From NCBI GenBank assembly GCA_016647705.1, contig CM028333.1, forward strand, positions 10,180,616 to 10,244,615: a DNA stretch of 64,000 nt. Reading direction: 5' to 3'. A program made the translations under genes and the position numbers. The notes beneath the pieces were generated by a model that worked only from the letters and a program-made list of their open reading frames with translations, was not told the origin of the DNA and searched no databases. Numbering within the stretch: position 1 is the first letter of the stretch; each line of letters starts with the position of its first letter. This document shows positions 1,729 through 40,386 of the stretch, in pieces. Source of the DNA: Eucommia ulmoides. Its lineage: Eukaryota > Streptophyta > Magnoliopsida > Garryales > Eucommiaceae.

Positions 1729-2526
1729 TGTTGGATGAGAGTATTTTCGGGCACCACTGAGTCAGCATCTGGGACCCAGCCACGTGTTCGTCCTCGTAGT
1801 GATATGGACACATTCTAGAATTCAAGCACCACTCTAGAAAATACGCTGACCACAACTCCTCCTTAGAATCTCATTTTTACCCAGGGCGGAGGAAGGGGCC
1901 CCGCACAGACGTGCCACCTTGAGCTCTGTGTCATGCCCCAGGCAGCCAGCTTTAGGGGCTCAACCATTCACCTCAATCGGCTCCTCATTCCAGCTCATTT
2001 ATCCTCCAAGACTCCACGGATCTCCACTCTCCTTCACCAGCTCAGTACCACAGGCTTGACAGAGGCTCGTGGGCTTGGCCAAATGGGCCCAAAAATACAA
2101 GCCCAACAGTTGTCTCCTAAACGCCCCAGATTATGGGCTAAACACAGGATTTCGATTAATTAACCATGTTTAGGACCAACTAATCATCTCCAACACCTAT
2201 ATATACCCGAGGCTATGCAAGCCCGAGGTACGCTTTATTACGCGCATGCATTGAGTTCACTCGCTTACTTAACGCTTTCTTATAACTTTTTTCTTTGAGT
2301 TCTTATTTTTGCATTGGAGGGGCTTCACGGGGATAAATCTCGATCTAAGCCTTATATAGGTACACTACCTGAGGATCAGGACTCTGGACACAGTAAATTA
2401 GTCCTCCCAGGACCCAATACAACTCACCTGAAGAATTTTCAATCACCGACTCTACCTCAGTAAGAGGACCCATCGGTCATTCGACTGGACCATACTCGAG
2501 GTGTGTACCATTTTTATACACCAACA
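1729..2526 (+). repeat. 5' LTR of the Tat element
   Basis: The 798-bp LTR opens TGTTGG and closes CCAACA, a perfect 6-bp inverted terminal match. From TTTTCGGGCACCACT (about 1744) onward it is collinear with the split 3' LTR (13202-13290 and 23271-23933). The first 15 bases are not matched in the 3' copy, so the exact left edge rests on the TGTTGG/CCAACA pairing alone. The sequence after 2526 is the primer-binding region, which fixes the right edge. Confidence 0.8.
2198..2207 (+). promoter_or_regulatory. TATA box of the Tat LTR promoter
   Basis: CTATATATAC sits about 320 bases before the LTR end. The matching position in the 3' LTR (about 23635-23645) also reads TTATATATAT. This fits the U3/R boundary of a plant LTR promoter. 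Confidence 0.55.
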
Positions 2527-2546: not shown

Positions 2547-4073
2547 ACCGTACGAGAAGCCTTCCCTTGATCATTGCTCTCTGCTCAGCTAAGCTCGAAT
2601 GATCGTAAGGTTTAGTTAGGCAGGCTGACCTAGTATAGAAGAAAGAGAAAACATGTCAAGAACTCCAAGGGCCTACCTCCCAACTCCCACCAACGAGGAT
2701 AACCGCCCTCCAAAACTAGGAAGGATCGTCCACTCTACCACCTGGGGTTGCGGGACAGATCTCGTGAGCTATAGAGACATATTAGGTTGATCTCCTTGAA
2801 CGCCAAATGAGTGGGTTCAAGTCGTGTGTTCAACTCCTCCTCGCGCACTTGCTGCTACCTCATTTTCAAGGGGGATTAGTTCTCTAGACCGTTGCACTCG
2901 AGGAGCCACCTCAAGATCGTGATGCTCTCATGAGCACTTCAAATGGGCATGTGCCTGGGGGGCCGCTCTCTGTCTTGCAACCCTGAGCTTGTGGAATAGG
3001 AGAGGGCCCCCCGGTAATACCAAGATCTCCACTTCTTCCACTGCATGAATTTGTGCCAAGCGACCTGTCAGTGTCCCCTAATGGTCGAGCTCTTCATCAT
3101 CCAGCTAGGTCCAATCATATAGGTCGACGTGAGCATAAAGTTGGTTCCTACTTACCTTCCTCCTATTACATTACGGCCCGAGCTGCAGGCAATCATGTAC
3201 GGTGGGAGCCCTTAGCAGGGGAGGTTGTGGAGTATCGCCTGGATAACATGAAAGCCCATCTCCAAGAGGTTCAAGGAGGTCGAGTAGAACTGGGTATTAT
3301 TGTCGAGGTAAGGTCTCATTTTGTGTAGGAAGTTCTAGAAGTAGTACCAAGGCACTTCACTTACCCCCAGATGAATCTGTATGATGGCACATCAGAACTC
3401 GTTAATCACCTGTCTATGTTCAAGTCTCATATGAACATACAAGTGGCCTTTGTAGCTCTACGGTGCAGATCTTTTCCCATCACCCTCATAGGTGCAGCGA
3501 GGTCCTGGTTTTAAGGTCTGAGGCCAATAATTATCTCCACCTTCAGGGAGCTCAAACATTTGTTCTTGGATCATTTCAGATGCTCCCGGCGAAGGCCAAA
3601 AACTTTGGCTCATATACTCACTCTTTGGTAAGAGCCCTCTGAATCTTTGGGAGACTATGTTGAGTGCTTCAACCAAAAAACAAATGTGTGCGATGACCTC
3701 CCTGAGAGTGTAGCACTGAATGCTTTTGTCAATGGGCTCTGGCATCAGAGGTTTTCTTACGACCTCTACTCCAACCCTACTCCCACTCTTGATCAAGCTT
3801 TGGACCGTAGGGCTAGATTCCATAGTGCTGACCTCCGTTCTATGACCAAGAGAGAGAGAGGAAATGAGTAAACAAGATGAGGAAACCAATGAATAAAGGT
3901 TCAAATCAAACCCAAGGCTCAAGAAGATTACAGGCACAAGGGAGATTAGGACCCCTGCTTGGGGAGAGGAGACCACTTCCTCCCCCAGGGTGTCTCCAGC
4001 AAGGGTTCACCCCAGTCACAGCCTCAATGGCCACTATCTTCATGGAGAATTCAAGGCATGACTTCTTTCCTCC

Positions 4074-4150
4074 TCCACTATTAGTAGCTAAAATGATTTC
4101 TTTCACTTCTGAATCCCAAATAATTCTATTAGGGGTACAAAGATTTAAGA
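4074..4150 (-). pseudogene. atpE: Plastid atpE (ATP synthase CF1 epsilon subunit) N-terminal fragment
   Basis: Minus-strand translation gives LNLC followed by [21 protein letters not shown], matching roughly residues 3-27 of plastid ATP synthase epsilon apart from a two-residue gap after LNLC. It stops abruptly at the gag junction, so the rest of the roughly 133-residue protein is missing. This is a dead fragment transferred from the plastid. Confidence 0.8.
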
Positions 4151-4179
4151 AATTGTTGGAGTTATCATTTCTATCTAGT

Positions 4180-4287
4180 ACCACTCCTTTGATGGGCGTC
4201 ACTATGGCTCTATTTGCGATATTTCTAGCTATTATTTTGGAGATTTATAATTCCTCTATTTTATTGGATGAAATTTCAATGAATTAG
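4180..4287 (+). pseudogene. psbH: Plastid psbH (photosystem II 10-kDa phosphoprotein) C-terminal fragment
   Basis: The plus strand reads [32 protein letters not shown] then TAG, the single membrane span and C-terminus of PsbH (about 35 of 73 residues). The N-terminal half, with the phosphorylated threonine region, is absent. The sequence after the stop to about 4420 looks like the plastid spacer following psbH, but I could not confirm this by eye. It abuts the atpE piece, which is not its neighbour in plastomes. Confidence 0.85.
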
Positions 4288-4746
4288 ATCTATAAGAACC
4301 ACAAAGTCCTAGCTTCCACAGCTAGTTAACCAAAATGAGGATCCCAAATTGAATCCACTTCATTTGTCAACTTTATGTGATTTAATCTTTCTCTTACACA
4401 TGAGTTGTATTACAAGGTAGCAAACCCATGAATCCATTTTTTGTGATTTCGTGGTTAGTCTATAATATATTTAAAGTAAAAAACTTATATATAACCCGTC
4501 ATAAAAAAAAAAAAAAAAAAGAGTCTTTTTTGGAAATGCTCCGGAAGAATGGAAAAGGTCCCTCGAGTATGCTATTATTATATAAATTCGAATCGGAACA
4601 CGATTCTCATAGATGTTGAATCCACTTTGATTCTTTCTTTTTCCTCCCTTAATTGGATTTCATTTGAAAAGGGAAAAAAGAGAAAAGGGGGGAGAGGTAT
4701 TAGTCACAGATATTTGATTGTATTTCTAATTTTCTTCATTCCTATG

Positions 4747-4887
4747 TCAATAACTAGAATTAAAAAAGGGGAATGTCAACGCATCAGGGAAAAATCGATT
4801 AATCTCTATCAATAGACCTACTAAAGACCCGAACCATAGCATACTTAGTACCGGTGCCGCAGATAGATATGTTTTTAAATCTCGCAT
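4747..4887 (-). CDS. psaJ: Plastid-derived psaJ (photosystem I subunit IX) copy, reading frame uninterrupted
   Basis: The frame from ATG at 4887 encodes 46 residues starting MRDLKTYLS and containing [20 protein letters not shown], the conserved membrane span and tail of PsaJ (normally 42-44 residues). A few residues differ from the usual plastid protein (for example S-A-A-P and S-M-L-W), and the C-terminus ends FPFFNSSY. In the plastid this subunit binds chlorophyll at the photosystem I reaction centre. Here it lacks a plastid promoter context and a transit peptide, so it is almost surely not functional although intact. The AT-rich sequence downstream (about 4530-4746) is probably the psaJ-rpl33 spacer. 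Confidence 0.85.
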
Positions 4888-5159
4888 AGAGAGGAAAGCC
4901 GACCGGAAGGGCAATGACCAAGTACTATGCATTCTACTGGGAACGGTGGCACTCCACTGAAGATTGCTTCCAACTTTAGCAAGAAATCGAAGTTCTCGTC
5001 CAAAGATGATATATTGGGAATTACGTCCAGAGAGAGAATCAAGAGCGCCCTACCAAGGAAGAACTGTCGATAGAGCCTCAGGCCTAAAGAAGACAAGGAA
5101 ATCGCCCCTGTCCATAACCCTCGAGGGTAGAGGATGGAGACGATAAAAAACGTATGGAT

Positions 5160-6960: not shown

Positions 6961-6984
6961 AAGCATTATCTCTCTTCACCTCCT

Positions 6985-7250
6985 CTGCTCAACACTCCCA
7001 AGAGGGGAAAAGTTGTTCTTATATATTTTTGCTTCCTCAACCGCGGTGAGCACAACCCTGGTGAGGGGGGAAAATGGTGTTCAGAACCCAGTGTATTACT
7101 CTAGTAGGGTCCTCCGGGATACAGAGACTAGATACTTAAAATTTGAAAAGTTGGCCTATGCCTTACTGATCATCTCCAAAAAACTTCAACAATATTTCTA
7201 GGCACACACCATTATGGTTCTGATTAACCAACCCCTGTAGCAGATCTTGC
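6985..7250 (+). pseudogene. First RNase H domain of the Tat element (Ty3-type)
   Basis: The segment reads L.LYIFASSTAVS..LVRGENGVQNPVYYSSRVL, then ETRY...EKLAYALL, the standard gypsy RNase H that follows reverse transcriptase. The first catalytic aspartate position is not intact and a stop interrupts the end. It would have removed RNA from the RNA:cDNA hybrid. Confidence 0.75.
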
Positions 7251-7454
7251 ACTATCATAATGTCTCAAGAAGGCTGATGAAGTACAACTTTGAGCTGGGA
7301 CAGTTCCATATGGAATATTGATCGAGAACGACAATCAAAGGCCAAGTCTTTGCCGATTTTATCGCAGAACTCACATTTCGGGAAGAGCAGGAACCAGTAG
7401 TAAATCCCCAAAGACCTCCATCCCCAAGAGACCCGGGGACCTCCTCTAACCCAT

Positions 7455-7860
7455 CCAACCTCGGCCAGACAGCATGGCAACTCTACACAGATCGATCGTC
7501 CAATATGAGCGGTTGATGGGCGGGTATGATTCTGGTAGCCCATGATAAAAAAATTGTTGAATATGCTCTCTAAATCGGATTCAGGGATACGAACAATAAA
7601 GCTGAGTACGAAGTCTTGTTCGTTGGTCTTCGCTTGGCAAGAGAATTCAATGTGCAAGCACTTATAGGCTTTTGTGACTCGCAACTCGAGGTCAACCAGA
7701 TGAACAACGAATACATAGCAAAGGATCCAAATATGTCAGCATACTTGGAGAGGGTTAGAGCACTTATGACAAATTTTGAAAAAATCCAAGTGTCTCAAAT
7801 CTCCCGGGAAGAGAACAGGCACGCTGACGCCCTGGTAAATCTCACATCGACGGTAGAGTG
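7455..7860 (+). pseudogene. Second, archaeal-type RNase H domain (Tat hallmark)
   Basis: After a TAWQLYTDRSS start, the segment continues with NNKAEYE.L..GLRLAREF, CDSQL.VNQ, YLERVRAL...F and SREENRHADALV.L. These are the D, E, D and HADAL landmarks of the plant/archaeal RNase H fold. Among plant gypsy elements a second RNase H of this type is diagnostic of the Tat lineage. One in-frame stop lies near 7516 and one near 7571; otherwise the domain is well preserved. Confidence 0.8.
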
Positions 7861-8099
7861 GACTCTGAAGAGAAGCATCCATGTGGAGTACCTTAACACT
7901 CCAAGAATTATGGCCTCGAATCCAGTGGCTACCATCTCTGAACTCACTGATCAGCCAACTTGGATAGACATAATCAAGTAGTACTTGGAGCGGAATACCT
8001 TCTTAGGGGATCGAACAGAGGCCAAGAGGAAATGTTACTAGGAAGCACGATTCACTCTCATTGATGGAGTTCTAGACCAGAGGTCATTCTCAAGCCCTT

Positions 8100-9082
8100 A
8101 TTCCAGGTGTCTCCATCTAGAAGAAGCCAAATATGTCTTGAGCGAGACTCACGAAGAGTTGTGCAGCAACCACTTGGGGGGCAAGTCTCTCACCGAAAAT
8201 CTAATTTTCCAAGGATATTTCTAACCAAAAATGCATGAGGATTCCATGGAATTTATCAAAAAATGTGATAAATGTTGGAGATTTTCCCCGCACCCCCACG
8301 GTTTTCTAACTGTGCTGGTCCCAATGACTAGTTTGTGGCCCTTTGCCTAGTGGGGCATTGACCTACTCGGACCCTTCCCCCAGGAGACTCGGTAGAGGAA
8401 GTTCTTAGTCGTCACCATTGACTATTTTACAAAGTAGGTCGAGGTTGAGCGTCTTATCCGAATCATGAAGAAAAAAATCTTTGAGTTTGCATGGAAGAAT
8501 ATTGTGTGCCGTTTTGGGGTCCCAAGAGAAATTGTGTCTGACATTGGCACCCAGTTCAACAACTCCCTCTTCATTACCTTCTATGCAGAACTATGGATCA
8601 AGACGAACTTCGCCTCCTCCGCCCACCCTCAATCAATTGTCAGGTGGAAGTTACAAACAGAACCATCTTGCACGGGTTGAAAATAAGACTTGACAAGTCG
8701 AAAAGATGGTGGATAGAAGATGTCTACTTTGTCCTTTAGGCATACCACACCACTCTAAGAACTCCTATCAAAGAAATAGCTTTTGTGATGGTCTTCGGCT
8801 ACGAGGCCGTCATCCCTGTAAAAATAAGCATACAGAATCTTAGAATTTTGCCGAAGCCTTTGATCAAGTCAGGAATAATGTGGCATTGTCGATGAACCTT
8901 GACCTATTTGAAGAATGAATGGAACAAGCCCAGGTTCATCAAGGTGCCAGAAAGCTAGGCCCTACCTGGGAAGGGTTGTATAGAGTTACCGGGATCACGT
9001 GTCCAAGAACCTATGATCTTGAAACGGAGGAAGGTGTGCCACTTAGGTACCCATGGAATACTTTCCATATAAAGCACTAACA
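8100..9082 (+). pseudogene. Integrase domain of the Tat element
   Basis: The zinc-binding motif is visible as H-x-ELC.NH plus KKCDKCW (8148-8280). The catalytic core follows with WGIDLLGPF (first Asp, about 8351) and VPREIVSDIGTQF (second Asp, about 8520-8550). The third acidic residue region (HPQS... then VTNR in another frame) is split by a frameshift near 8640. The C-terminus ends LETEEGVPLRYPWNTF..KHY at about 9010-9080. Several stops are present. An active enzyme would insert the cDNA into the host genome. Confidence 0.8.
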
Positions 9083-13186: not shown

Positions 13187-13290
13187 CCCTGACCGTCTCT
13201 CTTTTCGGGCACCACTAAGTCAGCATTTGGGACCCAACCACGTGTCTGTCCTCGTAGTGACATGGACGCACTTCGGAATCTGAGCGCGAC
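13187..13290 (+). repeat. 3' LTR of the Tat element, first part
   Basis: From TTTTCGGGCACCACTAAG at 13202 this matches 1744-1830 of the 5' LTR, including GGGACCCA-CCACGTG and TCCTCGTAGTGA. The left edge is uncertain by about 15 bases. It breaks off at 13290 where the inserted LTR element begins; the last 5 bases (gcgac) are the target duplication. Confidence 0.75.
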
Positions 13291-13357
13291 TGATAGGTGT
13301 GATCCACCTACATATTTTCAAACCGAATTAAGTTGGTTTTCGAGCATTTATATAGTA

Positions 13358-13403
13358 CTACCGTATAACCCGTGCTTGAAGGCACGGGTTGTGAAACAAC
13401 AAA

Positions 13404-13489
<86 letters not shown>

Positions 13490-16400
13490 ATTTTGTCATA
13501 ATTTTCTTTATATATACAATATTTTGTACCTATTTTATTTAACATTAATAATGACTAACAATTAAATATCAATAATAACTAACAATCGAGATTAAAATTT
13601 GTACCGATTAAAATAAGAGACATAGAAAAAGTAATTCGCAAGTAAGAAATAAATTATATTCTAAATTATATGAGAAAATAAGTATCATTTCACTCATATT
13701 ACCTATTCCTAATATTTATATTGAAATCACACACAGAGAGAGAGAGAGAGAGAGCGAGACGACTAAAAGAAATAATAATCAATTAAAACCTCTGTTTATA
13801 CCATAATCATTACAACTCAAACAACAATAACTACAATTGAAACTAAACAAAATCTACAAAGAAAAGAAAACTAATAATCAACTAAACTTCATAAAACATA
13901 TGCATTACAAATAAAACAGAATACCAATTTCCCCTTGATACTAAATAAAATTTATAGAGAGAGATTTTCAAAAACTATTGATCAAGAACTTTTAATACCA
14001 AACATTACAAATTGAATACAATGTCAAGCGTAAGATTATTACTTGTTGAAAGTAAACAAAAGCTATAGGGAGACTTTAAAAAACTATTGATCAAAAAAAT
14101 CTCATTTAATATCATAAGCATCACAAATCAAACACTATTTTAAATTGAACAAATTATGAAATACAACAAAATCACTATGAACCATAAAATGAAATTAAAA
14201 TCTTGTATCATACAGTAAGATGCTCAATACAAATTTAAATACAAAAAATTGAGATAATCATATTGTACTTTCAAATAAACACTAATTTCTAATGACTTAT
14301 CCACAATCCAAGCCAAGACATAATGATATAAAATAAATTCAATATAAACACATTAACACCTTTTGCTTCTTAATTGTCCAACTTTTGATGGTAAAATTTA
14401 TTACATCAAGAAAACAATATCATCCTTAAACTCAATGTTCCATGTTAAGCACCGATTGTCACTGTTGCACATGTGGAAGAACCAAAACTTTTTAACTGAC
14501 TATAATCATAGCTGATGAGGCAAATTTCAAGCACATAATGTTAAATGTGCACAACAACCTAATTAATGGCTGATATGAAATTATTCGTTTGAAAAAAAAC
14601 TCTAGCATAAACTTTCAAATAAATCAATCACATTGAAACATTACTTCAAGAAACATTAGCACAAATTTTTGGCTTAATAGACACGATTAACGTGTGGTTG
14701 TGAAATCTTGATACAAACAAACCTAGTCATAATGGCCAAGGTAATGTAATAACACTCGAATCATGTATGAGAAATACAATGAAAAAAAAAATAGAAGGCT
14801 ACCACCCATAATGTTTATATCAATTTACAGACGCCATCAAAATTTTATATATCGGTTGGTGCTAAATAAATATTACCAAAATTACAAACTAATCAATTCA
14901 CAATTACGCACCAGAAATTCTGTGGGTTAAGTCAAGCAGTTGAATTCCTCAACATAAGCTAGCGAAAGTTCGTCATCACTTGTTGGTCTCATGTCTGTAC
15001 AGACCTGAACCAATTTAATATGCATAATTTAATAGAACAATTATGAAACAGATAGAAATATTTCCCTAATACCCCAACCTGTAGCACCTATCATCATATT
15101 TCTTAGAATTGTATTTTACACCAAGAAACTTGGAACATAAACAAAAATATAGAAACAAAGATAAATGTTTTTGTTTCATTCTATGCTTTTCTAGAAACAG
15201 AACATAAATATATTTTTTTGCACCACATTCTTGTTTATGTTCCAAATTATTTAGGAATATTAGAAAATGACTACTACCTAAAAGAATTGTAAACAGTGAC
15301 CATTATACAATTATCTATAATGGTCACTAAATGGTCATTGTCTACTGTAAGTGGTCAAACTAAAATTAACAGAAATAGGAAAACTAATCCTTTTTTTTTT
15401 TCCCTGCAATTTTGTTCTAGAAAAAACCAAAAAAGGGGGAAAAATATTGAAACAATCATACGGTGCCTTAACAACAAATTAACACCAAATTCCACATTAG
15501 ATCCAATGAAAGCTTCAACAAAAAAAAAAAATCAAAATCAACCATTTCTTGACCAGTGTGTTCGGCGATAGAAGCGCCGATGGCGTGGAAAGAAAGAGGG
15601 AGGGAGGAAAAGAAAAGAACTACACAGATCTGACTTGAGGAATCAATTAGAAGTAATCGGATCTCCAGCAACATGGATGCATACCATCATTTTCCGAAAT
15701 AAGCGATTGAAGAAGGAGAAGGCGTCATCGCAAGAGACGGAGTACCGTCGGCATGTTTGTTCCCACATTTTAACATCCAAAACATAATACTGAGCTTGTA
15801 CCTGTACATAGCCAGTATCAAAAGTCTGTTTGTTCCCATATTTCTGCAAAATCCATCACAAATTCACAATACTCTTACCAACAAAACTTATAGCAAAGTG
15901 TTTCGATTTAAATATAAAATGGTAAAAAATAATTATCCTATTAAAGATCTAATTTTTAGCTTAGTAATATTACTAACTGAAATCATTTAGGAATGATTGT
16001 AAAATATACTAAGATTTGTTTAAGAATGTTTCCAAATCTAGATTTTTGAATAATTAATTGTTAAAAAAATTTAGAATGATGCTACTGCTAAAAAAGTGAA
16101 ATGATTTTGTAGCTAAAAAACCCATATGAAAAAAACAACTAAAGTATCATATCTCGCACCTGATCAGGAAGTAAACTGTGAAGGGAGCTCCCAATCTCAA
16201 TTCAAAATCTTCCAATCTCGATGGCTGCAGAGTAGTAAAATTAGAGACAAAATTGACATTAAACCATAGATTCATAGATGAGGATTCAAAGAAATGAATG
16301 CTAATAAAAAGTGGAGAACATACAAAAAAAAAAAAAAAAAAAGACAAAATAATTAACAGAATAAAGAAAGAATAGAAAAAATATTAAAAAATACCAAATA

Positions 16401-17693
16401 ATCAAAATTGAATCTTAAACATATAAGTTCTTTTGGTAGGCAAATAATAAACAATAAACTCAAAATTAACTTCACTTTCTAATACGACTGTGCAAATGAA
16501 TGATAAATACATGAGTTTAAAAAAAAGGATCATATCACATAATGAGTAACATTGTGAATAGATCTTACTTCATCTCAAGAACATCAAGCCAACTTCATCT
16601 CCATACCTGGATCTATGGAAAATAAAAAGAAAAAATCAAATTTAGTGGATAAATTTCGCAAAAAATTGAATGAAATCAGAAACTAAAAAGGCAAGTCAGA
16701 TTCAACCAAGTTGGTGGAAAATAAATTAGCAAAAATAAACCGCAATTCATAGATCAAAACATAAATTGGTTATCTGATTTTCATATTGTAGAATTATTCC
16801 CGTTAAAAATCAAAACCCTAAATCAGATAGGTAAGAGCGAGAGAGATGAGAGTACCTGTGATTAGGGATGAATATAGAAACGAAGCTTTGCGTCGCTGAG
16901 AAGCTTGAGATAGAGAATTTTTAATGGACAAAGGAATAAAATCAAAACAAATATGAGAAAATTAAGGGATGACAGAAAAGATGGTAGGTAATGGTGCGTG
17001 CGTGAGAGGAAGAAAGTGCATACCTGAGCGATGATGTCCGGTGATGGAACAGTGATGACAGCTATGGCCGTGCGTGGCAATGCCCGGCGATGGAGCAGCT
17101 AAGACGTTCATGGTGGTGGGTGGCGATGCGCGGCGATGGAGCAGCGATGGTGGTGGTTTCGTAGATCTAGGAAATCAATTTTAGATTTAGCCAAAATAAA
17201 CACAAAGAAGACGGCTGTCGGTGGCAGATCAAAGCAAAAATAAACACAGAGAGGGTGATGAAAAAGAGAGAGAGGTCGATTGGTCATAAATCGGACCAAA
17301 GAAAACCCAAATCTAGCCAAATTGGACTTTGATCTGGCCAAATCTGGACACTTGAAGTCAGGAGATGGCATCTCTAGAGTGGTTGAGACCGATGATGGTA
17401 GAGACGATAGTTCTGCGATGGGTCGACGCCAGGCAGCAAAAGAGACGACAAATGGGCAAGCAGGCAGCTATGGCGATGGATGGTGCCGTGGATGAATAAA
17501 TCTGCAAAAGAGGGATGAGAGAGATGTACCTGCACTACAGCGAGAACGACGATGATGGATAGACTCGTGATGACATGTAAGGGTGGACGACAATGGATTG
17601 GGTGGAGTGAGAGCGACGGAGACGGCGATGGCGGTGGCGGTGGCGATGGCCATGGTGGCGGTTGGCCGATTTCAGTGGCGACGTCGGAGGTGG

Positions 17694-17733
<40 letters not shown>

Positions 17734-17898
17734 GAGGGTTGGGGAAGAGAGTAAGCATGAGAGTAAGAGACTACGGCTCCAAGCCCTAAAAACTATATGT
17801 TGTATAATATAAAAGTAATCCAACGGCTAGAAATATCTTTTATGTTTGTCTCTTGATTCGACGATTCTCTTTATAAGTGAACTGATTTATTATATAAA
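13358..17898 (-). mobile_element. Non-autonomous Helitron, copy 1
   Basis: The exact borders come from comparing the split LTR with the intact LTR: insertion between A and T, as Helitrons require, with no target duplication. On the minus strand it starts TTTATATAATAAATCAG (17898) and ends with the hairpin ACCCGTGC-CTTCAA-GCACGGGT followed by TATACGGTAG (13358). Copy 2 at 27041-30790 shares both ends and most of the interior, for example the blocks near 14460-14560 and 15290-15370. No Rep/helicase ORF is present. The interior includes a (TA)n array (about 13410-13489), (AG)n tracts and GC-rich trinucleotide-like repeats (about 17580-17700). No captured gene could be recognised. Confidence 0.88.
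13364..13392 (-). other. Helitron copy 1 3'-terminal hairpin
   Basis: AACCCGTGC TTGAAG GCACGGGTT forms a 9-bp stem a few bases inside the Helitron end, the position of the rolling-circle termination hairpin in this transposon class. Confidence 0.8.
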
Positions 17899-18370
17899 TT
17901 TTATTATGTTTTAATTAGTTTTCATACTTTTTGTATAAATCAGATGTGTAGGGTAAAAAGATAGAAAACTGGAACGAAAACGATGAGATTGAACCAAAAG
18001 TGATCGAAGAACGGTGGAAAAACAAGCTCGGAGGCAAAATTGTGAAACAAGTCCACCGCCGCGGCGTCCAGACCACCGCCGCGGCGGTGAAGTTATTGAG
18101 AAAAGAACAAGTGTTACTGATGGACCATTGCCTAGGCAGAGAAATCCAACGCCTAGGCAGAAATCCAGCAGAGGAAATAAAAATAGGCTACTGACAGCCC
18201 ACCGCCTAGGCAGAAATTCAGCAGATTGTTCTTCCTAAGCCACCACTGTTTTTATCACCGCGGCGGTTACAAACCGACCTACCTTCGCCTAGGCGGAGGA
18301 TCCCTTCGCCTAGGCAAAGACCCTCTGCATAACCTAGATATTTTTAGGATATTTTTTGAGATATTTTGTT

Positions 18371-18378
18371 TATAAATA
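18371..18378 (+). promoter_or_regulatory. TATA box of the non-autonomous LTR
   Basis: TATAAATA, followed by CTATCCCCTCTCCC, is conserved in both LTRs (second copy at about 22109-22117). It probably marks the U3/R boundary. Confidence 0.6.
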
Positions 18379-19547
18379 CTATCCCCTCTCCCTTCCTTGT
18401 GAACCCCTCCCCCCCCCCCCCCCAAGCCATTTGGGCACCTTATGCCATATTTAGGCTAGGATTTAGGAGTTTTAGAGGTGAAGCTCACATCCTGAAGTGG
18501 AGAAGACGGCGAATCGATCGTTGAGCATTTTTAGTGGTTTATCTTCGGACGAGGTTAAGTTCTTCTGTTGTTTTTCCTTATTTCTTTATCTTAGGATTAT
18601 GAGAGAATGCTTATATTGTTATTTCATTGTAAATGCGTCTAAGACCATAGCTAAACATGGATTGTAGTAGGGATTAACACTATATTTATAAATACGTTGT
18701 TTGGATGATTTCGGTGTTTCGTTTGTGATTGTTCTTCGTAGTTTGATTGTATTTATCGTATTGTTTGTTTATCATGCTTAGTTAGATAAATGGATAATAC
18801 GGGGTTTTGACAACCCCCGGATTCGGATTTGGGTAAACAAACGCCACGATTCTATAACCTGGTCGAGGTTTGAATCGTGGACAATCGATGACATTGGGGC
18901 AAGACTAACACGACCTAGGGACGTTAAGAAGTTGAGGGGGACTTCTTCGTTGACTCGAAGTCACGTTATATCCCTCGTCTTACACTCGGGAGAGGTGGCG
19001 AAGGAGTTTTAGAATGGAGATTGTCGATAGGGTAAAGACAACGCACAATCCAATGACCCGGTCTGGAGTTGGATTGTGTGCAATCAATGACGCTGGGCGA
19101 GACTCACGTGACCTAGAATTGTTAAGACATTGAGGGGGACTTCTTCGTTGACTCGAAGTCATGTATTCTCCCGTCTTACACTCAGGAGAGGTGGCGGTAG
19201 AGTTTACTTACCGAGGTTGTCAAATGGGTCGAACACTGTAAACGTGAGTAAATTGACATCGAACACGTATTTGTAAGCATATTAATCCCTAAGCAATTCT
19301 TTACCCTAAAACATATTATCATATTAGTGTAGTTAATTTAGGTTATATTAGTATTAGTTTAATTAATTAAATACATTTATTTTTTGCCTAGATAAAGTTG
19401 GGTCACGACATATGCGGTATTCGATAGTAACGACACCAATCCCTGTGGATACGATAACTCGATCTTAACGATCACACTATACTAAAACTTAGACCTCGTA
19501 TACTTGCGAGTGTAAGTAGCGGCATATTTCACGTCTTACCAAGTTTT

Positions 19548-19566
19548 TGGTGCCGTTGCCGGAGAT
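19548..19566 (+). other. Primer-binding site, tRNA-Asp type
   Basis: TGGTGCCGTTGCCGGAGAT begins 7 bases after the LTR. It matches 17 of 19 bases of the sequence complementary to the 3' end of plant tRNA-Asp(GTC), the primer commonly used by Athila/Tat elements. Confidence 0.75.
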
Positions 19567-21524
19567 TGGTTTGATGTTATTGCCGGAGAAATGCGGTAAT
19601 GGATGGAGACTTAAGTTTTAGATAGGAGAAGCAAGTGTATCGTATTTTTGTCGAGGATTGGCAAAGTTGTTATTATTGATATTGTGTGTAAATGACTTAA
19701 TTTTACTTTAGGCATTTCTTTTATATATAATTTTTGTTTGTAGTTTTGTTTTTGTTTTTGTTTCTTATGCAGGGTACTTGGCGATATTAGATTGACGGGT
19801 ATTGATGCATCCCATTCGACGGGATTCCAATCCGTTTTATGTTGCTTGGCCAAGCACATAAGCCGGTGAGGCATTTCGTTGAAGATTGAGCCATTCAAAG
19901 CAAAATCTCACCAATCTTGAGGACGTTTTGAAAATTTCAGGTCGAGGACATTAAACCACACGCTTCTTGGGAGGCAACCCAAGGTCAAATAAGTTAAATC
20001 TGTTACATCCGACTTGAATCGGAGGTGAGATCCTCTCGCCTCCCAAGTAAGTGTTCTAAACACCCTTCGTCAGCATACTTTAATTTTATATGTTGAGAAT
20101 GATGATTGGGATCGCTGAGAACACTATCCGTTTTAAGTTCGGAAGTGATGTGTAGTATTTAGTATTTTTAGTTTATGTGTTATCGGTTTCTCGTATTGCA
20201 TGTGTGTTTAGGTTAGAATGTGTTTATATTTTTGTTGTTGTTGTATGTTGAGTTTTGCGTTCATCTGGGCCATTACCAGATGATGATAATTACCCTTGGT
20301 TGTTTTCGAAGTCAAGGGTAATACCTATGCATGTGTGATTCTGTGTGCTTGACTATGCTTTTTAGTAAAAATTATTGTAGATCCTAATTTGCACGGGTAC
20401 ATAGACTCAATGTATAGTTATTCAATTGATTTGAGAACGATTATCGATTAGCCAAATTAATGACATATTAAGGATTCTATAACTTGATTGAGCGGAAGCT
20501 TGAGGCGAAATCCTAGGCGAGGTAGTTCAGGAGACGTGATTTAGGCATTCGTTTTATCGCTTGAGCCTTTTTAAGCCTACCTTGTAATATGTTTATCCCT
20601 CGTTACCCTGTCGAATCCTAAATGAAAATTCAATTGAGAACACATAAACTAATACCATGGCCAGTTAACCTTTTTCCAAACCTAAATCACTAAATTTAAG
20701 AGCACATTTGAGTTAATCAAGCTAGCAATTATAAATACTACTTGATGTGAGCGGTTGGATTTAGGGCGAACTTCTAATTGGTTCGGTATTTGAGTACTCA
20801 CTTGTCATTTTTCATTTGTATTTCACACACCTCTTCAATTGTAACAATCAAATAAGTTTGGGGGTGTATTCATTGAAAAGAAAAAAAAAATAAAAAAAAA
20901 ATCAAATGTATATACGGTTTTTATTTCCATTTCTTTTGACAAGTGAGTACTATGGTCTTAAATGCATGTTCGAGATTGTTTCCAATCTAAGTATGGGGGT
21001 TCGAGAGTAAATGTGCCAAACGTTGAACCTTGGGTAACGTTATGTTAACAACGTTAACCCATTTTCTATTCCAAATTACCCTTGGCCAAATATTCCATAA
21101 CCGAACCAAGTCCTTCTGATCTTTTTGAACTCCCAAGTCTATATTAGTGGAGAGTAGACCCCAATCAGGCATATGGAAATCCTAGTACTTCATGGTCTAA
21201 GTCATGAATTTCGTTGGGGGATAATCCAATCCTATAGTTACATTATTGAGTCACGCACTAACACGCATACATGATCTAGAATAGCGTTCACCATTATTGT
21301 ATGTTAAAATTCTAGAACCACATGATGTGTTTTACCGCTTGAACTCGATATAACTGGCAGTTATTGAGGGACAAAAATAAATAGGCCATTAGAAGAAGTA
21401 AAAACTCGCATGTTGTTATATTTAGATTGTTTTTAGGACGTTTGTTATTTAATTCATTTAGTTGTATTTTTCATTTTCGTGTGTGTGTTTGACTCGAGGT
21501 GTTTGACTCGAGGATTAGCCAAAT
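19567..21524 (+). other. Non-coding internal region of the non-autonomous LTR element
   Basis: No gag or pol similarity is visible in any frame. One landmark is CTTCTTGGGAGGCAACCCAAGG at about 19963-19984, a hairpin-forming string also common near the 3' end of Athila/Tat internal regions. The rest is AT-rich with short poly-A runs (about 20880-20900). Confidence 0.65.
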
Positions 21525-21542
21525 TCCAAGTTTGGGGTTATT
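21525..21542 (+). other. Polypurine tract before the 3' LTR
   Basis: AAGTTTGGGGTTATT directly precedes the LTR start TGATAGG at 21543. The AGTTTGGGG string is the usual plus-strand priming tract in Athila/Tat relatives. Confidence 0.55.
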
Positions 21543-23265
21543 TGATAGGTATGATTCACCTACGTATTTCCAAACCGAATTAAGTTAGCTTTCTAGCGTT
21601 TATATAGTATTTTATTATGTTTTAATTTGTTTTCATACTTTTTGTATAAATCAGGTGTGGGGGGCAAAAAGATAGGAAATTGGAGTGAAAATGACGAGAT
21701 CGAACCAAAAGCAATCGAAGAACGGTAGAAAAACAAGTTCGGAGGCAAAATTGTGAAACAAGCCCACCGCCGTGGCGTCCAGACCACCGCCGCAGCGGTG
21801 AAGTTGCTGAGAAAAGAAAAAGTGTTACTGATGGACCACCGCCTAGGCGGAGAAGACCACCGCCTAGGCGAAAATCCAACAGAGCCACCGTCTAGGCGGA
21901 AATCCAGCAGAGGAAACAAAAATAGGCTACTTACAACCCACCACCTAGGCGGAGAATTCCTCTGCCTAGGCAAAAATTCAGCATATTGTTCTTCCTAAGC
22001 CATCTCTGTCTTCATCGCCACGGTGGTCACAAACCGACCTATCTCCGCCTAGGCGGAGATCTTCTGCACAGCCTAGATATTTTTAGGATATTTTTTGAGA
22101 TATTTTGTTTATAAATACCATCCCCTCTCCCCTCCTTATGAACCCCCCGTCCATTTGGGCACCTTAGGCCATATTTAGGCTAGGGTTTAGGAGTTTTAGA
22201 GGTGGAGCTTACATCCCGAAGTGGAGAAGACGACGAATCGATCGTTGAGCGTTTTTAGTGGTTTATCTTCAGACGAGGCTAAGTTCTTCGGTTCTTTTTC
22301 CTTATTTCTTTATCTTAGGATCATATGAACATGTTTAGCTTGTTATTTCATTGTAAATGCGGCTAAGGCCATAGCTAAACATGAATTGTAGTAGGGATTA
22401 ACACTATATTTATAAATACGTTGTTTGGATGATTTCGATGTTTCGTATGTGATTGTTCTTTGTAGTTTGATTGTATTTATCGTATTATTTGTTTATCATG
22501 CTTAGTTAGATAAATGGAGAATACGGGGGTTTGACAACCCCCAGATTCGGATTTAGGTAAACAAACGCCACGATTCTATAACCTGATCGAGGTTTGAATC
22601 GTGGACAATCGATGACGTTGGGGCAAGATTCACGCGACCTAGGGTCGTTAAAACGTTAAGAGGGACTTCTTCGTTGACTCGAAGTCGCGTTATATCTCTC
22701 GTCTTACACTCGGGGGAGGTGGCGAAGGAGTTTTAGAACGGAGATTGTCAATAGAGTAAATACAACGCATAATCCAATGACCCAGTCGGGAGTTGGATTG
22801 AGTGCAATCAATGACGTTGGGCGAGACTCACATAACCTAGGGTTGTTAAGACGTTGATGGGGACTTCTTCGTTGACTCGAAGTCATGTATTCCCCCGTCT
22901 TACACTCAGGAGAGGTGGCGGTGGAGTTTACGTACCGAGGTTGTCAAATAGGTCGAACATTGTAAATATAAGTAAATTGAGATCGAATACGTATTTGTAA
23001 ACACGTTAATCCCTAGACAATTCTTTACTGTAAAACATATTAGCATATTAGTGTATTTAATTTAGGTTATATTAGTATTAGTTTAATTAATTAAATACAT
23101 TTGTTTTTCGCCTAGATAAAGTTAGGTCACGACAAACGCGGTATTCGATAGTAATGACATCAATCCCTATAAATACGATAACCTGATCTTAACGATCACA
23201 CTATACTAGAACTTAAACTTCGTATACTTGCGAGTGTAAGTAGCGGCGTATTTCACGTCCTACCA
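21543..23265 (+). repeat. 3' LTR of the non-autonomous element
   Basis: This intact 1723-bp LTR runs from TGATAGG to CCTACCA. It shows the uninterrupted sequence of the Helitron target (TATAGTA-TTTTATTATG). It also contains the CCGCCTAGGCGG palindromes (about 21830-22060), the TATA box and the internal 198-bp duplication. Confidence 0.85.
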
Positions 23266-23270
23266 GTGAC

Positions 23271-23933
23271 GTTGGAACATACGCCAACCACGACTTCTCT
23301 CTGGAATCTCATTTGCACCAAAGGCAGAGTAAGGTACCCCGTAAGGACGTGTCACCCTAAGCTCTGCGTCGTGCCTCAGGCGATCAGTTTCAGGGGCTAA
23401 GCCATTCACCTCGACCGACTCCTAATTCCAGCTCGTTTCTCCTCTAGGACTCTATGGATCTCTACTCTTCTCCACCATCTCACCACCACAGGCCTGACAG
23501 AGGCCCGCGGGCTTCGCCAAATAGACCCAGAAGCCCAAGCCTAACAGTTATCTCCAAAACGCTTTGCATTATCAACTAAACACAGGGTTTTGACTAATTA
23601 ACCATGTTTAGATCCTACTAATCATCTCCAACACTTATATATATCAGGGGCTATAGAAGCTTGATGTACACTTTATTACGCGCATGCATTGAGTTCACTT
23701 GCTTATTTAACAAATTCCTATACCTTTTTCTCTCTGAGTTTTTATTCTCACACCGGAGGGACTTCTGGGACAAATCTCGGTCTGAGCCTTCTGCAGGAAC
23801 ACTCCATAAGGAGCAGGACTCTAAACACAACATATCAGTTTTTCTAGGACCCAGTATAGCTCACTTAAAGAATTTTCAACCGCCGACTTCACCTTAGTAA
23901 GAAGACTTACCTGTTATCTGATTGCACCATACT
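23271..23933 (+). repeat. 3' LTR of the Tat element, second part, end truncated
   Basis: Collinear with about 1846-2492 of the 5' LTR (CGCCAACCACGACT, CTCTGCGTCGTGCC, CCATTCACCTCGACC, TTATTACGCGCATGCATTGAGTTCACT). Similarity stops at CCATACT (23933), so the last 33 or so bases of the LTR are missing. Confidence 0.8.
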
Positions 23934-27040: not shown

Positions 27041-30000
27041 TCTATATAATAAATCAGCTCATTTATATTGGTAGTCGTTAGATGTCTCTTGATATCTCAT
27101 ATCCAAGGGCCAAGATCAAATATTGGTAAGAGACATTTGTAGCCTTAGGATCAATCATCATCCAACAGTTGCGATTACATCTTCCCACTATCCCTAATCA
27201 TTTTCAAACCCATTTCAAATTTCAAACCCGTCTCTCTCTCTCTCCTCTCCCCATTCTCTCACGACCTCCAAACCTATCTCCCTCTCAGCGATCTCCCTAA
27301 ATTTATGGCAATCGTCGTCGTTGTCGTCGCCATCTCCATCGCCACCGACATATCCTCTATCGCCAGCCTTCGTCTCCATTTCGCTCGCCATCGACAACCG
27401 CTACCACAATCACAGTAGTCGTTGCCGTCGATTTGGTCAGATGTAAGTTTGGATTGGCCAAATCTTAGTTTGATTTGGCCATATCTGAGGTCAACTTGGC
27501 TGGATCATGATGGCGATGGCCGGCGGTGGTGGGATCTGGATGGAAATGGCCAGCGCCGGTCGGATCTGGATGGTGTTGGTAGGAACTGGATGGTGTGTGG
27601 CTGGATCTGGATGGCGTACAGCGGTGGTCGGATCTGGACGATCTCGATTTCTCACCTCCACTACCTCGGTTTCTACTTCACCAACAATCGACCTCTGCTT
27701 ATTGCCGGACCTACTGATATACAGGTACTCACTTTATCTCCATCGTCACAGCTTCGATTTTGGCTTCCATTTCGGCGACGCGTTGAGTTAGCCTTCGAGC
27801 CGTTGTCCTGAACCGGTTTAGGCAAAACCCTCTTATTGTTTCTAACCCTAGCTATGGTTTCTTCGTTTGAATCTTCGGTCCCGTGAGCCAAAGTTGTTTT
27901 TAGAAAAATAATTAAAGGAATGAGGTTTTGATATTGATGCCTTTATATTTGGTGCTGCAACTTTAATTAAAGGAATCAGCAGAAGGGATATGCGGACTTG
28001 CAAGAGTCGGCTTGGGAAAAGAACATTTCATGCTACTATGGAGTGACTCTTCCAAAAGACATGGGTAGTTCATTGGCTTGCAGTTGGGCCGAAGTTGATC
28101 CCTCCACATTTCTAATCCGTAGAATATAAGAAGGTTCGGAAATTGAATCTACAGAACTTAAGGCTCCGTTTGTTTCAAAAGCAAAAAAAATAAAAAAAAT
28201 AATCTGTTTTTATTCTGTTCCAATATTTTGTTTCAAAAGCAAAAAAAAATAAAAATAATTTGTTTTTATTCTGTTCCAATATTTTTAGAACAAGTTTCTG
28301 CCCAGATCTTTGTTTTTTGTTTTGGGTTTTTTGGAACAGAAACACTAAACAAAGAGCACTTTAAATTCAAAATCATTTCTTTGAATCCTGACACTTTTTT
28401 TTTTCAACCTCAAAATCTGATAATTGTTTTTATTTTATTTTTTTATTTTTTCCTTTTGCCAGATCAAGGCAAAAAGCACTTTGATGCAAATGGTTGTTGC
28501 AGATTGGGTAAGATCAGACAACCGTGAAGATGATCTTGGTGCCTGTCCTGGAGGCATTGTCCATGTTTGAATATGGTCCACTCAGGTGGCATTTGCTTGG
28601 TGTTTCCTGTTTCTGTTCTAAAAAAAAAATTGAAACAAAAAATAAAAGATTTGGGAACAAAAAATTCTGATATGTTCCAAAAATATGGAACATAACTGGA
28701 ACATTTTTTTTTTCAGTTTGGTTTCTCAATTTTCTGAGAACTGAAACAGAAATGCTAAACAAACTTAACCTTTTCCTACTCTCTTAATTTCAAAATAATC
28801 TAACGACGAGTTGGGTTTATGCAGAAATATGCTGCAATAGGTGGTCCGGAATTCTTAAACAAATCTTAGTAGAGTTTGCAACCATTTTATGTTTAAATCA
28901 AAACACTTTGCTATAAGTTTTGTTGGTAAGAGTATTGTGATGAATTTTGTTGAAATAAGAGAACGATTTGGTGTTAATTTGCTGTTAAGGCACCATTTGA
29001 TTGTTTCAATGTTTTTTTTTTTTTTTTTTTTGCCTTTTCTAAGTTTTTCTATAACGAAATTGCGGGGAATAAAATGGGTTAGTTCCCCGATTTTTGTTCT
29101 GGGAACAGAAATAGGTTTTAGTTTGATCACTTACAGTGAACAATGACTATTTACAGTGACCATTATAGATAATTGTATCATGGTTATTGTTTACAATTCT
29201 TTTAGGTAGCAATTGTTTTCTAATGTTCCTAGAAAAGCAGAGAATAAAACAAAAACATTTTATCTTTGTTTTTGTATTTTTGTTTATGTTCTAAATTGCT
29301 TGGTGTAAAGTACAATTCTAAATAAATATGATGATAGGTGCTACAGGTTGGGATATTGGGAAAATAATTATATTTGTTTCGTAATTGTTCTATTAAATTA
29401 TGCATATTGAATTGGTTCGGGTTTGTATAGATGTGAGATTGGCAAGTGATGACGAACTTCCATTAACTTACATCACCTTGGCCATTAAGGACTAGGTTTG
29501 TTTACATCACCTTGGCCACTAATCATGTCTATTAAGCCATAATTTTTTGTGTTAATGTTTCTTGAAGTAACGTTTCAATGTGATTGATTTACTTGAAAGT
29601 TTATTTTAGAGTTTTTTTCAAACAATTTTTTCACATCAACCATTAATTAGGCTGTTGTACACATTTAGCTTTATGCGCTTGAATTCTGGCTCATCAGTTA
29701 TGATTATAGTCAGTTACAAAATTTTGTTATTCCACATGTTCAACAATGGCTGTTGGTGCTCAACATGGAACATTGAGTTTGAGGATGAAGTTTTTTCCTT
29801 GATGTAAGAATTTTTGCCACCAAAAGTTGGGCAATTAAGAAGGAAAATGTGTTAATGTGTTTGTATTGAATTTATTTTATATCATTATTTCTTGGGTTGG
29901 ATTGTGGGTAAGTTATATTACAAATTAGTGTTTATTTGAACAAATGTGATTATCTCAGTTTTTTTTCTTATTATATTTGTATTGAACATTTTATTGTATG

Positions 30001-30790
30001 ATAAAAGATTTTTACTTCATTTTTTGGTTCATGGCAATTTTGTATTTTATAATTTGTTCAATTTAAAATTGTGCTTTATTTGTGATGCTTATACTATTAA
30101 ATGAGGTTTAGTTGATCAATATTTTTTTAAATATCTCTATAAATTTTGTTTACTTTCAATAAGTAATAGTTTTATGTTTGACATTGTGCTCGATTTGTAA
30201 TGTTAGGTATTAGAAGAAGTTCATGATCAATATTTTTTGAAATTCTCTCTCTATAAATTTTATTTAGTTTCTAGAGGAAATTTATATTTTGTTAGATTTA
30301 TAATGTTTATGTTTTATGAAGTTCAGTTGATTATTAGTTTTTGAAATTCTTTATTTTCTTTGCATATTTTATTTACTTTTAATTATAGTTATTATTGCTT
30401 GAGTTGTAATGATTATGGTACGAGTAAAGGTTTAATTGATTAAGTTTTTTTAGTTGTCTCTCTCTCTCTCTCTCTGTGTGTGTGTCTCTCTAGTTTCAAT
30501 ATAATTATTGGGAATAGGCAATGTGGGTGAAATGATACCTATTTTCTCATATAATTTACAATATAATTTATTTATTATTTGCATATAACCCATGCTATCT
30601 CTTATTTTATATCGGTATAAGTTTTAGTCTCGATTTTTAATTATTATTAATGTTCAATTATTAGTCATTATTGATATTCAAATGAAATAGGTGCAAAATA
30701 TTATATATCAAAGAAAATTATGGTAAAAAAATATATTATTTTTTTTTCGTTGTTTCACACCCGTGCCTTCAGGTACGGGTTATACGTTAG
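27041..30790 (+). mobile_element. Non-autonomous Helitron, copy 2
   Basis: Starts with a canonical TC (TCTATATAATAAATCAGCTC) after an A at 27040. It ends with the hairpin ACCCGTGCCTTCAGGTACGGGT then TATACGTTAG, followed by T at 30791. The 3750-bp copy is collinear with the reverse of copy 1: TTTGGCCAAATC-like blocks near the 5' end, GATCACTTACAGTGA...CATTATAGATAATTGTAT near 29130, and TTAATTAGGCTGTTGTACACATT near 29650. It encodes no Rep/helicase and no recognisable captured gene. A tandem pair of ATAAAAATAATYTGTTTTTATTCTGTTCCAATATT lies at about 28190-28290. Confidence 0.85.
30756..30782 (+). other. Helitron copy 2 3'-terminal hairpin
   Basis: ACCCGTGCC TTCA GGTACGGGT gives a stem with one mismatch, positioned like that of copy 1, just before TATACGTTAG-T. 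Confidence 0.75.
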
Positions 30791-39731: not shown

Positions 39732-40386
39732 TAGTTTCTCGTGTTTTTAATGAAATCATGTTTTGACGTTGAAAATTTTGATTTAATCTTGAAACAATTG
39801 TTTGATACATTGAAAACTCTAGGGTTCCCATTCAAAAACCTTCCATTTTATTTTTTGACAAACACATAACAATTATTTGTGGACATTCACAATTGACGTT
39901 TCCCATTATGAAAAACATTCTAAATTGTGTGCATGTCAAACCTTTGCTAGTTCGATTGTGACTGTTGACAATATGTGTTCTACAGATTATGTTTCAAAAT
40001 GTAATATAACATATACACTTAAGTACTAATAACCTATTTGGTTCAAACTAAATAGGTTATTAGTACTAGTTTCTCGTGTTTTTAATGAAATCATGTTTTG
40101 ACGTTGAAAATTTTGATTTAATCTTGAAACAATTGTTTGATACATTGAAAACTCTAGGGTTCCCATTCAAAAACCTTCCATTTTGTTTTTTGACAAACAC
40201 ATAACAATTATTTGTGGACATTCACAATTGACGTTTCCCATTATGAAAAACATTCTAAATTGTGTGCATGTCAAACCTTTGCTAGTTCGATTGTGACTGT
40301 TGACAATATGTGTTCTACAGATTATGTTTCAAAATATAATATAACATATACACTTAAGTACTAATAACCTATTTGGTTCAAACTAA
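39732..40386 (+). repeat. Recent 335-bp tandem duplication
   Basis: Copy 1 (39732-40066) and copy 2 (40067-40386) differ by only a few bases (for example TTTTATTTTTTG versus TTTTGTTTTTTG, and TGTAATATAAC versus TATAATATAAC). At the junction an 18-bp inverted repeat (AGTACTAATAACCTATTT, 40022-40039 and 40050-40067) with a 10-base spacer forms a foldback. The content is AT-rich with no ORF. Confidence 0.85.

Follow-up and report, generated by a model that had tools for sequence, protein, structure and literature searches.

Seven short plastid pieces within the gag region of a decayed Ty3/gypsy element: very probably a complex NUPT joined at a break in an existing retrotransposon

The gag region of a decayed Ty3/gypsy element harbors a plastid mosaic of about 0.8 kb, located at positions 4075-4888 of the window, i.e. 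of the whole stretch of 64,000 nucleotides that was analysed. Seven plastid pieces are recognisable in this insert, each of them short (about 37-330 nt). Since more than one plastid segment is thus found at a single nuclear site, the insert is very probably a complex NUPT. Judged against sibling gag copies, its borders are at about 4078 and 4889, a few bases away from those drawn in the first-pass annotation (4074 and 4887). This annotation had placed plastid genes here, and psaJ, psbH and atpE are indeed each matched at protein level, with E-values that chance does not yield. However, it had described a mosaic of these three genes, which identifies them correctly but undercounts the pieces. 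Among the origins that it had proposed, the one in which an existing element breaks and plastid fragments are end-joined there is supported by our data: empty sites in sibling copies, short loss of target sequence, overlaps at junctions and an insert younger than its host.

For three of the pieces, the window's own sequence gives a protein match; psaB is identified through a longer relative and the others by their context. The four pieces added to the original three were found by searching the assembly (946.7 Mb, 391 contigs; from its content, probably a plant nuclear genome) with the insert and then by reading and scoring the neighbours of the matching loci. Copy counts from this search are lower bounds since 40 of 297 candidates were scored; two further genome searches yielded 17 and 12 candidates, every one of which was scored. 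In these genome-wide searches, most other nuclear plastid fragments align with a single block of the insert and end near the same points. The parent sequences of the pieces were deduced from such nuclear fragments rather than from a plastome, and no plastome contig was recognised among the loci seen. Contig C291 was considered as a plastome contig and rejected because 8.5 kb of it align with a stretch of chromosome C9 at 99.8% identity. This 20.7-kb contig (L016) and its C9 counterpart (L017) are maybe an uncollapsed haplotype. Scanning the window for Rfam families and tRNAs gave no match, nor did a search of a plasmid collection. The remainder of the window showed no plastid match to parts of L009, L010, L012 and L013, this search covering those plastid regions.

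The first piece (4075-4149, minus strand) is the 5' part of atpE with a 6-nt deletion, as indicated by a protein match and nuclear relatives. Without two codons, 4077-4148 on this strand aligns with chloroplast epsilon over residues 3-28 (E 1.5e-6), nothing else being matched at E up to 1; the Pfam score of the piece (16.7) is under the family cut-off of 27. The second piece (4147-4183, plus strand) is a 37-nt stretch that elsewhere lies near domain V of a plastid ndhA/ndhB-type group II intron. It is 97% identical in L070-L072, and its context includes Rfam RF04357 in L071, L044 and L043, with none listed for L072. These 37 nt would be part of an intron of this type. The third piece (4180-4315, plus strand), recognised by a protein match and the genome search, comprises codons 39-73 of psbH and the 3' spacer, the C-terminus at 4180-4284 matching PsbH with an E-value of 2.6e-14. 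The fourth piece (4311-4354, minus strand) is a psaB fragment with 90-91% identity to L065 and L066, and the longer stretch of L066 matches residues 80-106 of PsaB (best E 1e-11). A TAA is common to these three nuclear psaB fragments, at a position occupied by glutamine in solved PsaB chains; either the fragments share an ancestor or the TAA is a variant of the plastome itself.

The fifth piece (4347-4461, minus strand) corresponds to the ycf4-cemA spacer, in an arrangement that would put cemA on the minus strand. It is recognised by the context of L023, in which the start codon of cemA adjoins, by eye, the equivalent of the piece and a nearby stretch matches Pfam CemA (E 6.4e-11); the other side is presumably that of ycf4, according to the plastome gene order that we assume. 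The sixth piece (4462-4561, plus strand) derives from the trnP-psaJ spacer and is inverted relative to the seventh one. It shares 75% identity with L009 5062-5154, which has psaJ on one side and two tRNA genes on the other, and 80-91% with L067-L069, whereas 11 nt (4462-4472) and a few nucleotides at its 3' end have no explanation. The seventh piece (4562-4888, minus strand), supported by a protein match and the genome search, contains the whole psaJ gene and its 3' spacer, with a 13-nt deletion by comparison with L009 and L010. Its start ranges from 4562 (by eye) to 4575-4578 (BLAST). The psaJ gene itself (4762-4887, 42 residues) matches solved PsaJ chains with an E-value of 6.8e-22.

Contiguity of these segments in a plastome would have undermined the first-pass reading. 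L009 carries psaJ, 3' signals of rps12 and rps18 and two tRNA genes that ARAGORN reports as Gln(ttg) and Trp, the former being, from its position, probably a mutated trnP. Around psbH, L012 carries the petD intron, a further group II intron and signals of psbN and psbT. This gene content places psaJ and psbH each in an ordinary neighbourhood, separate from that of the other, and therefore gives no support to contiguity; this mapping covers psbH and psaJ, and plastome gene order and spacing are in part our assumption. The source regions of the pieces are, we assume, widely spaced in the plastome.

Several features of the host, read from its sequence, suggest a dead and decayed Tat-like element. 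In its pol region (6962-8677, plus strand), RT_RNaseH (6962-7198) and RVT_3 (7574-7978) are both over cut-off, RVT_3 being a candidate aRNH downstream of the original RNase H. A weak integrase core (rve, 8438-8677; E 0.0069, under the curated cut-off) is located downstream of RT/RNase H. Dual RNase H is known from Tat elements according to excerpts of PMC5348765, and the order found here fits this group. The gag sequence located 5' of the insert (3329-4078, plus strand) has frames broken by stops and shows a weak Retrotrans_gag match in 3632-3868 (E 0.061, under cut-off). On the 3' side (4889-5060, plus strand), sibling alignment identifies gag sequence with a decayed zinc-knuckle-like stretch, recognised by eye in the frame from 4881. 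Of the gag and pol stretches compared with Pfam in two sets, three of four and five of ten matched no family at E up to 0.1.

The 5' LTR (1744-2525, plus strand; homologous parts measured at 1744-1812 and 1837-2496) matches 13202-13270 with 90% identity and 23275-23933 with 78% identity. As read from the sequence, it would end near 2525, the outer ends not being fixed. The 3' LTR is on the plus strand and begins at 13202-13270, with ungapped similarity up to 13291 at 82%. Its remainder, similar to the 5' LTR, is at 23275-23933, and it was apparently split afterwards by an insertion of some 10 kb (approximately 13271-23274). LTR-like direct repeats with 86% identity (17890-19541 and 21600-23265) are found in this 10-kb stretch. 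The window also contains two inverted repeats, each some 1.3 kb long and 83% identical to the other (13483-14749 and 29468-30736), and a near-tandem 320-bp duplication with 99.4% identity (39732-40051 and 40067-40386).

At least 39 other copies of the gag flank at 3800-4078 were detected with 80-86% identity (40 of 729 candidates scored), and the best 20 of these 39 non-self copies were examined over about 0.5 kb each. All of them except one show an empty site with flanks 7-15 nt apart; in the remaining one (L053), the downstream flank has no match. The gag-like sequence that the first-pass annotation had noticed on both sides is thus confirmed, 19 of the 20 siblings aligning with each side. 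In L054 and L055, whose flank aligns up to 4078, the two flanks are separated by 7 nt. Furthermore, the genome search (40 of 297 candidates scored) revealed at least 13 loci in which 1-13 nt separate the two flanks, including three of the 20 siblings. The spacing in the siblings indicates that the insert replaces roughly 7-15 nt of gag. The insert has no real match in the 20 sibling stretches (best E 0.30).

Both outer junctions occur once in the whole assembly, at this locus (31-base patterns, up to 3 mismatches), and control patterns gave 0 matches. Such patterns would miss copies diverged by more than about 10%, but the insertion itself is about 3% diverged, so that any amplification afterwards should have left copies closer than this limit. 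For all eight junctions, the 24-mers that span them, searched with up to 4 mismatches, found no match in 75 other fetched loci, the genome-wide coverage being partial for internal junctions. Matches in L076 and L024 extend 8-15 nt past a junction, and from the alignments these extensions look like chance. The first-pass annotation had proposed to look for the same gag/plastid junctions in other copies, which might have revealed a retrotransposon that amplifies plastid DNA; none was found at up to 3 mismatches in 31. With unique outer junctions and 20 sibling stretches devoid of any insert match, this view is rejected, and the spread of plastid DNA by the element is not supported. A joint reading, in which plastid-carrying copies of the family exist but are too diverged or unassembled and in which gag-internal patches mark recurrent break sites in dead Tat elements, deserves very little credence.

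Divergence also bears on the order of events. The K2P distance of the LTR pair is 0.267 over 658 sites, i.e. about 0.13 per lineage, and 0.113 over the first 69 sites, i.e. about 0.057 per lineage. Where three or more nuclear plastid fragments define a majority (the NUPT majority), the insert departs from it in 2.8% of the columns (17 of 597), including a few at uncertain junction positions. When thin columns are kept, many of which consist of one decayed relative, 35 of 785 columns differ (4.5%). Its divergence is therefore 3-5 times below that of one LTR lineage on the long LTR part and only 1-2 times below on the 69-site part alone. Hence, the bulk of the data indicates that the plastid fragments entered an element that was already old. 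This argument uses the ratio of divergences and leaves absolute ages out. Independently of divergence, the empty siblings and the unique junctions point to the same order.

The junctions give indications on how the insert was formed. In order, overlaps at the eight junctions are of 2-4 (depending on the sibling), 3, 4, 5, 2, 0, 0 and 0 nt. Five junctions thus have an overlap of 2-5 nt, and the last three have no exact overlap, with 11, 5 and 1 nt that have no explanation. When joints were simulated by breaking plastid-derived sequence at random, 7% of them had overlaps of at least 3 nt, versus three or four of the eight junctions here. These junctions display the signature of end joining, i.e. 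microhomology of 1-7 nt or blunt joints. In excerpts of PMC6215612, junctions of complex NUPTs are described with microhomology of 1-7 bp or blunt ends. Likewise, passages of PMC7037861 and PMC3989485 report mixed chloroplast segments joined through microhomology, and the same joining mechanisms are named in part of PMC6698032. We propose that the Tat-like element would have inserted and started to decay before plastid DNA arrived. A double-strand break may then have opened in its gag region, and microhomology-mediated or non-homologous end joining would probably have linked free plastid fragments with one another and with the two ends of the break. The repair would have cost roughly 7-15 nt of gag, and all pieces probably entered in one event.

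Other explanations were weighed against this scenario. A retrotransposon-linked spread of NUPTs has been proposed for papaya (excerpts of PMC7037861 and PMC6698032), which makes it conceivable that plastid DNA was captured before transposition and that insert-bearing copies were then amplified, as the first-pass annotation had also envisaged. However, such copies should be visible, whereas the siblings are empty, the 20 stretches have no insert match and neither outer junction recurs when up to 3 mismatches in 31 are allowed. Moreover, divergence is much lower in the insert than between the two LTRs, and capture thus appears highly improbable. The view that a larger plastid insertion came first and was later trimmed and shuffled within the nucleus is the least improbable of the alternatives but still unlikely. 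Although fragmentation and reshuffling after insertion are described for rice NUPTs in part of PMC7037861, the gap between adjacent pieces is here 0-11 nt, most of the joints have overlaps, and none contains a recognisable nuclear spacer. In addition, they come from plastome regions that we take to be widely spaced.

Plastid DNA is common in plant mitochondria, and the mosaic could have been pre-formed in a mitochondrial genome, or in a rearranged plastome, and transferred as a single contiguous piece. Nevertheless, no mitochondrial sequence was recognised on reading the pieces, psaJ in L009 and psbH in L012 keep ordinary plastome neighbourhoods and the junction 24-mers are unmatched at up to 4 mismatches in the other fetched loci. 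This origin is therefore quite improbable. Finally, an assembly artefact, in which plastid reads would be misjoined into a nuclear contig, is hardly credible: the insert has its own changes (17 of 597 columns) and small deletions, it sits in gag with a short loss only, and five of eight junctions show overlaps. Misjoining would also not be expected to produce seven tiny pieces. Our preferred explanation remains the joining of plastid fragments where an existing element had broken.

This locus is a worked example in which repeat siblings give the empty site, the LTRs and the insert give two clocks, and the junctions give the repair. It leaves the knowledge of NUPTs unchanged, and the answer to whether a retrotransposon drives plastid amplification at this locus is no, within the limits of the search. 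Like the complex NUPTs described in excerpts of Portugez et al. 2018 (PMC6215612), the insert combines multiple fragments from varied places and in varied orientations, whose joints are blunt or share a few bases of microhomology; by comparison with those excerpts, its pieces are short (about 37-330 nt) and its target is a retrotransposon gag. The joint insertion of several disjunct chloroplast fragments through end joining is also reported for de novo NUPTs of tobacco (Lloyd and Timmis, as cited in parts of PMC7037861 and PMC3989485), but these are experimental whereas the present locus is old and natural. In papaya, the proliferation of an rps15 NUPT, as presented in part of PMC7037861, likewise associates plastid DNA with a Ty3/gypsy element; by contrast, a single copy was detected here, within the element, with no sign of proliferation. 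Hence, this type of event is ordinary for plant genomes, and the insert is a further instance of the complex NUPTs already published.
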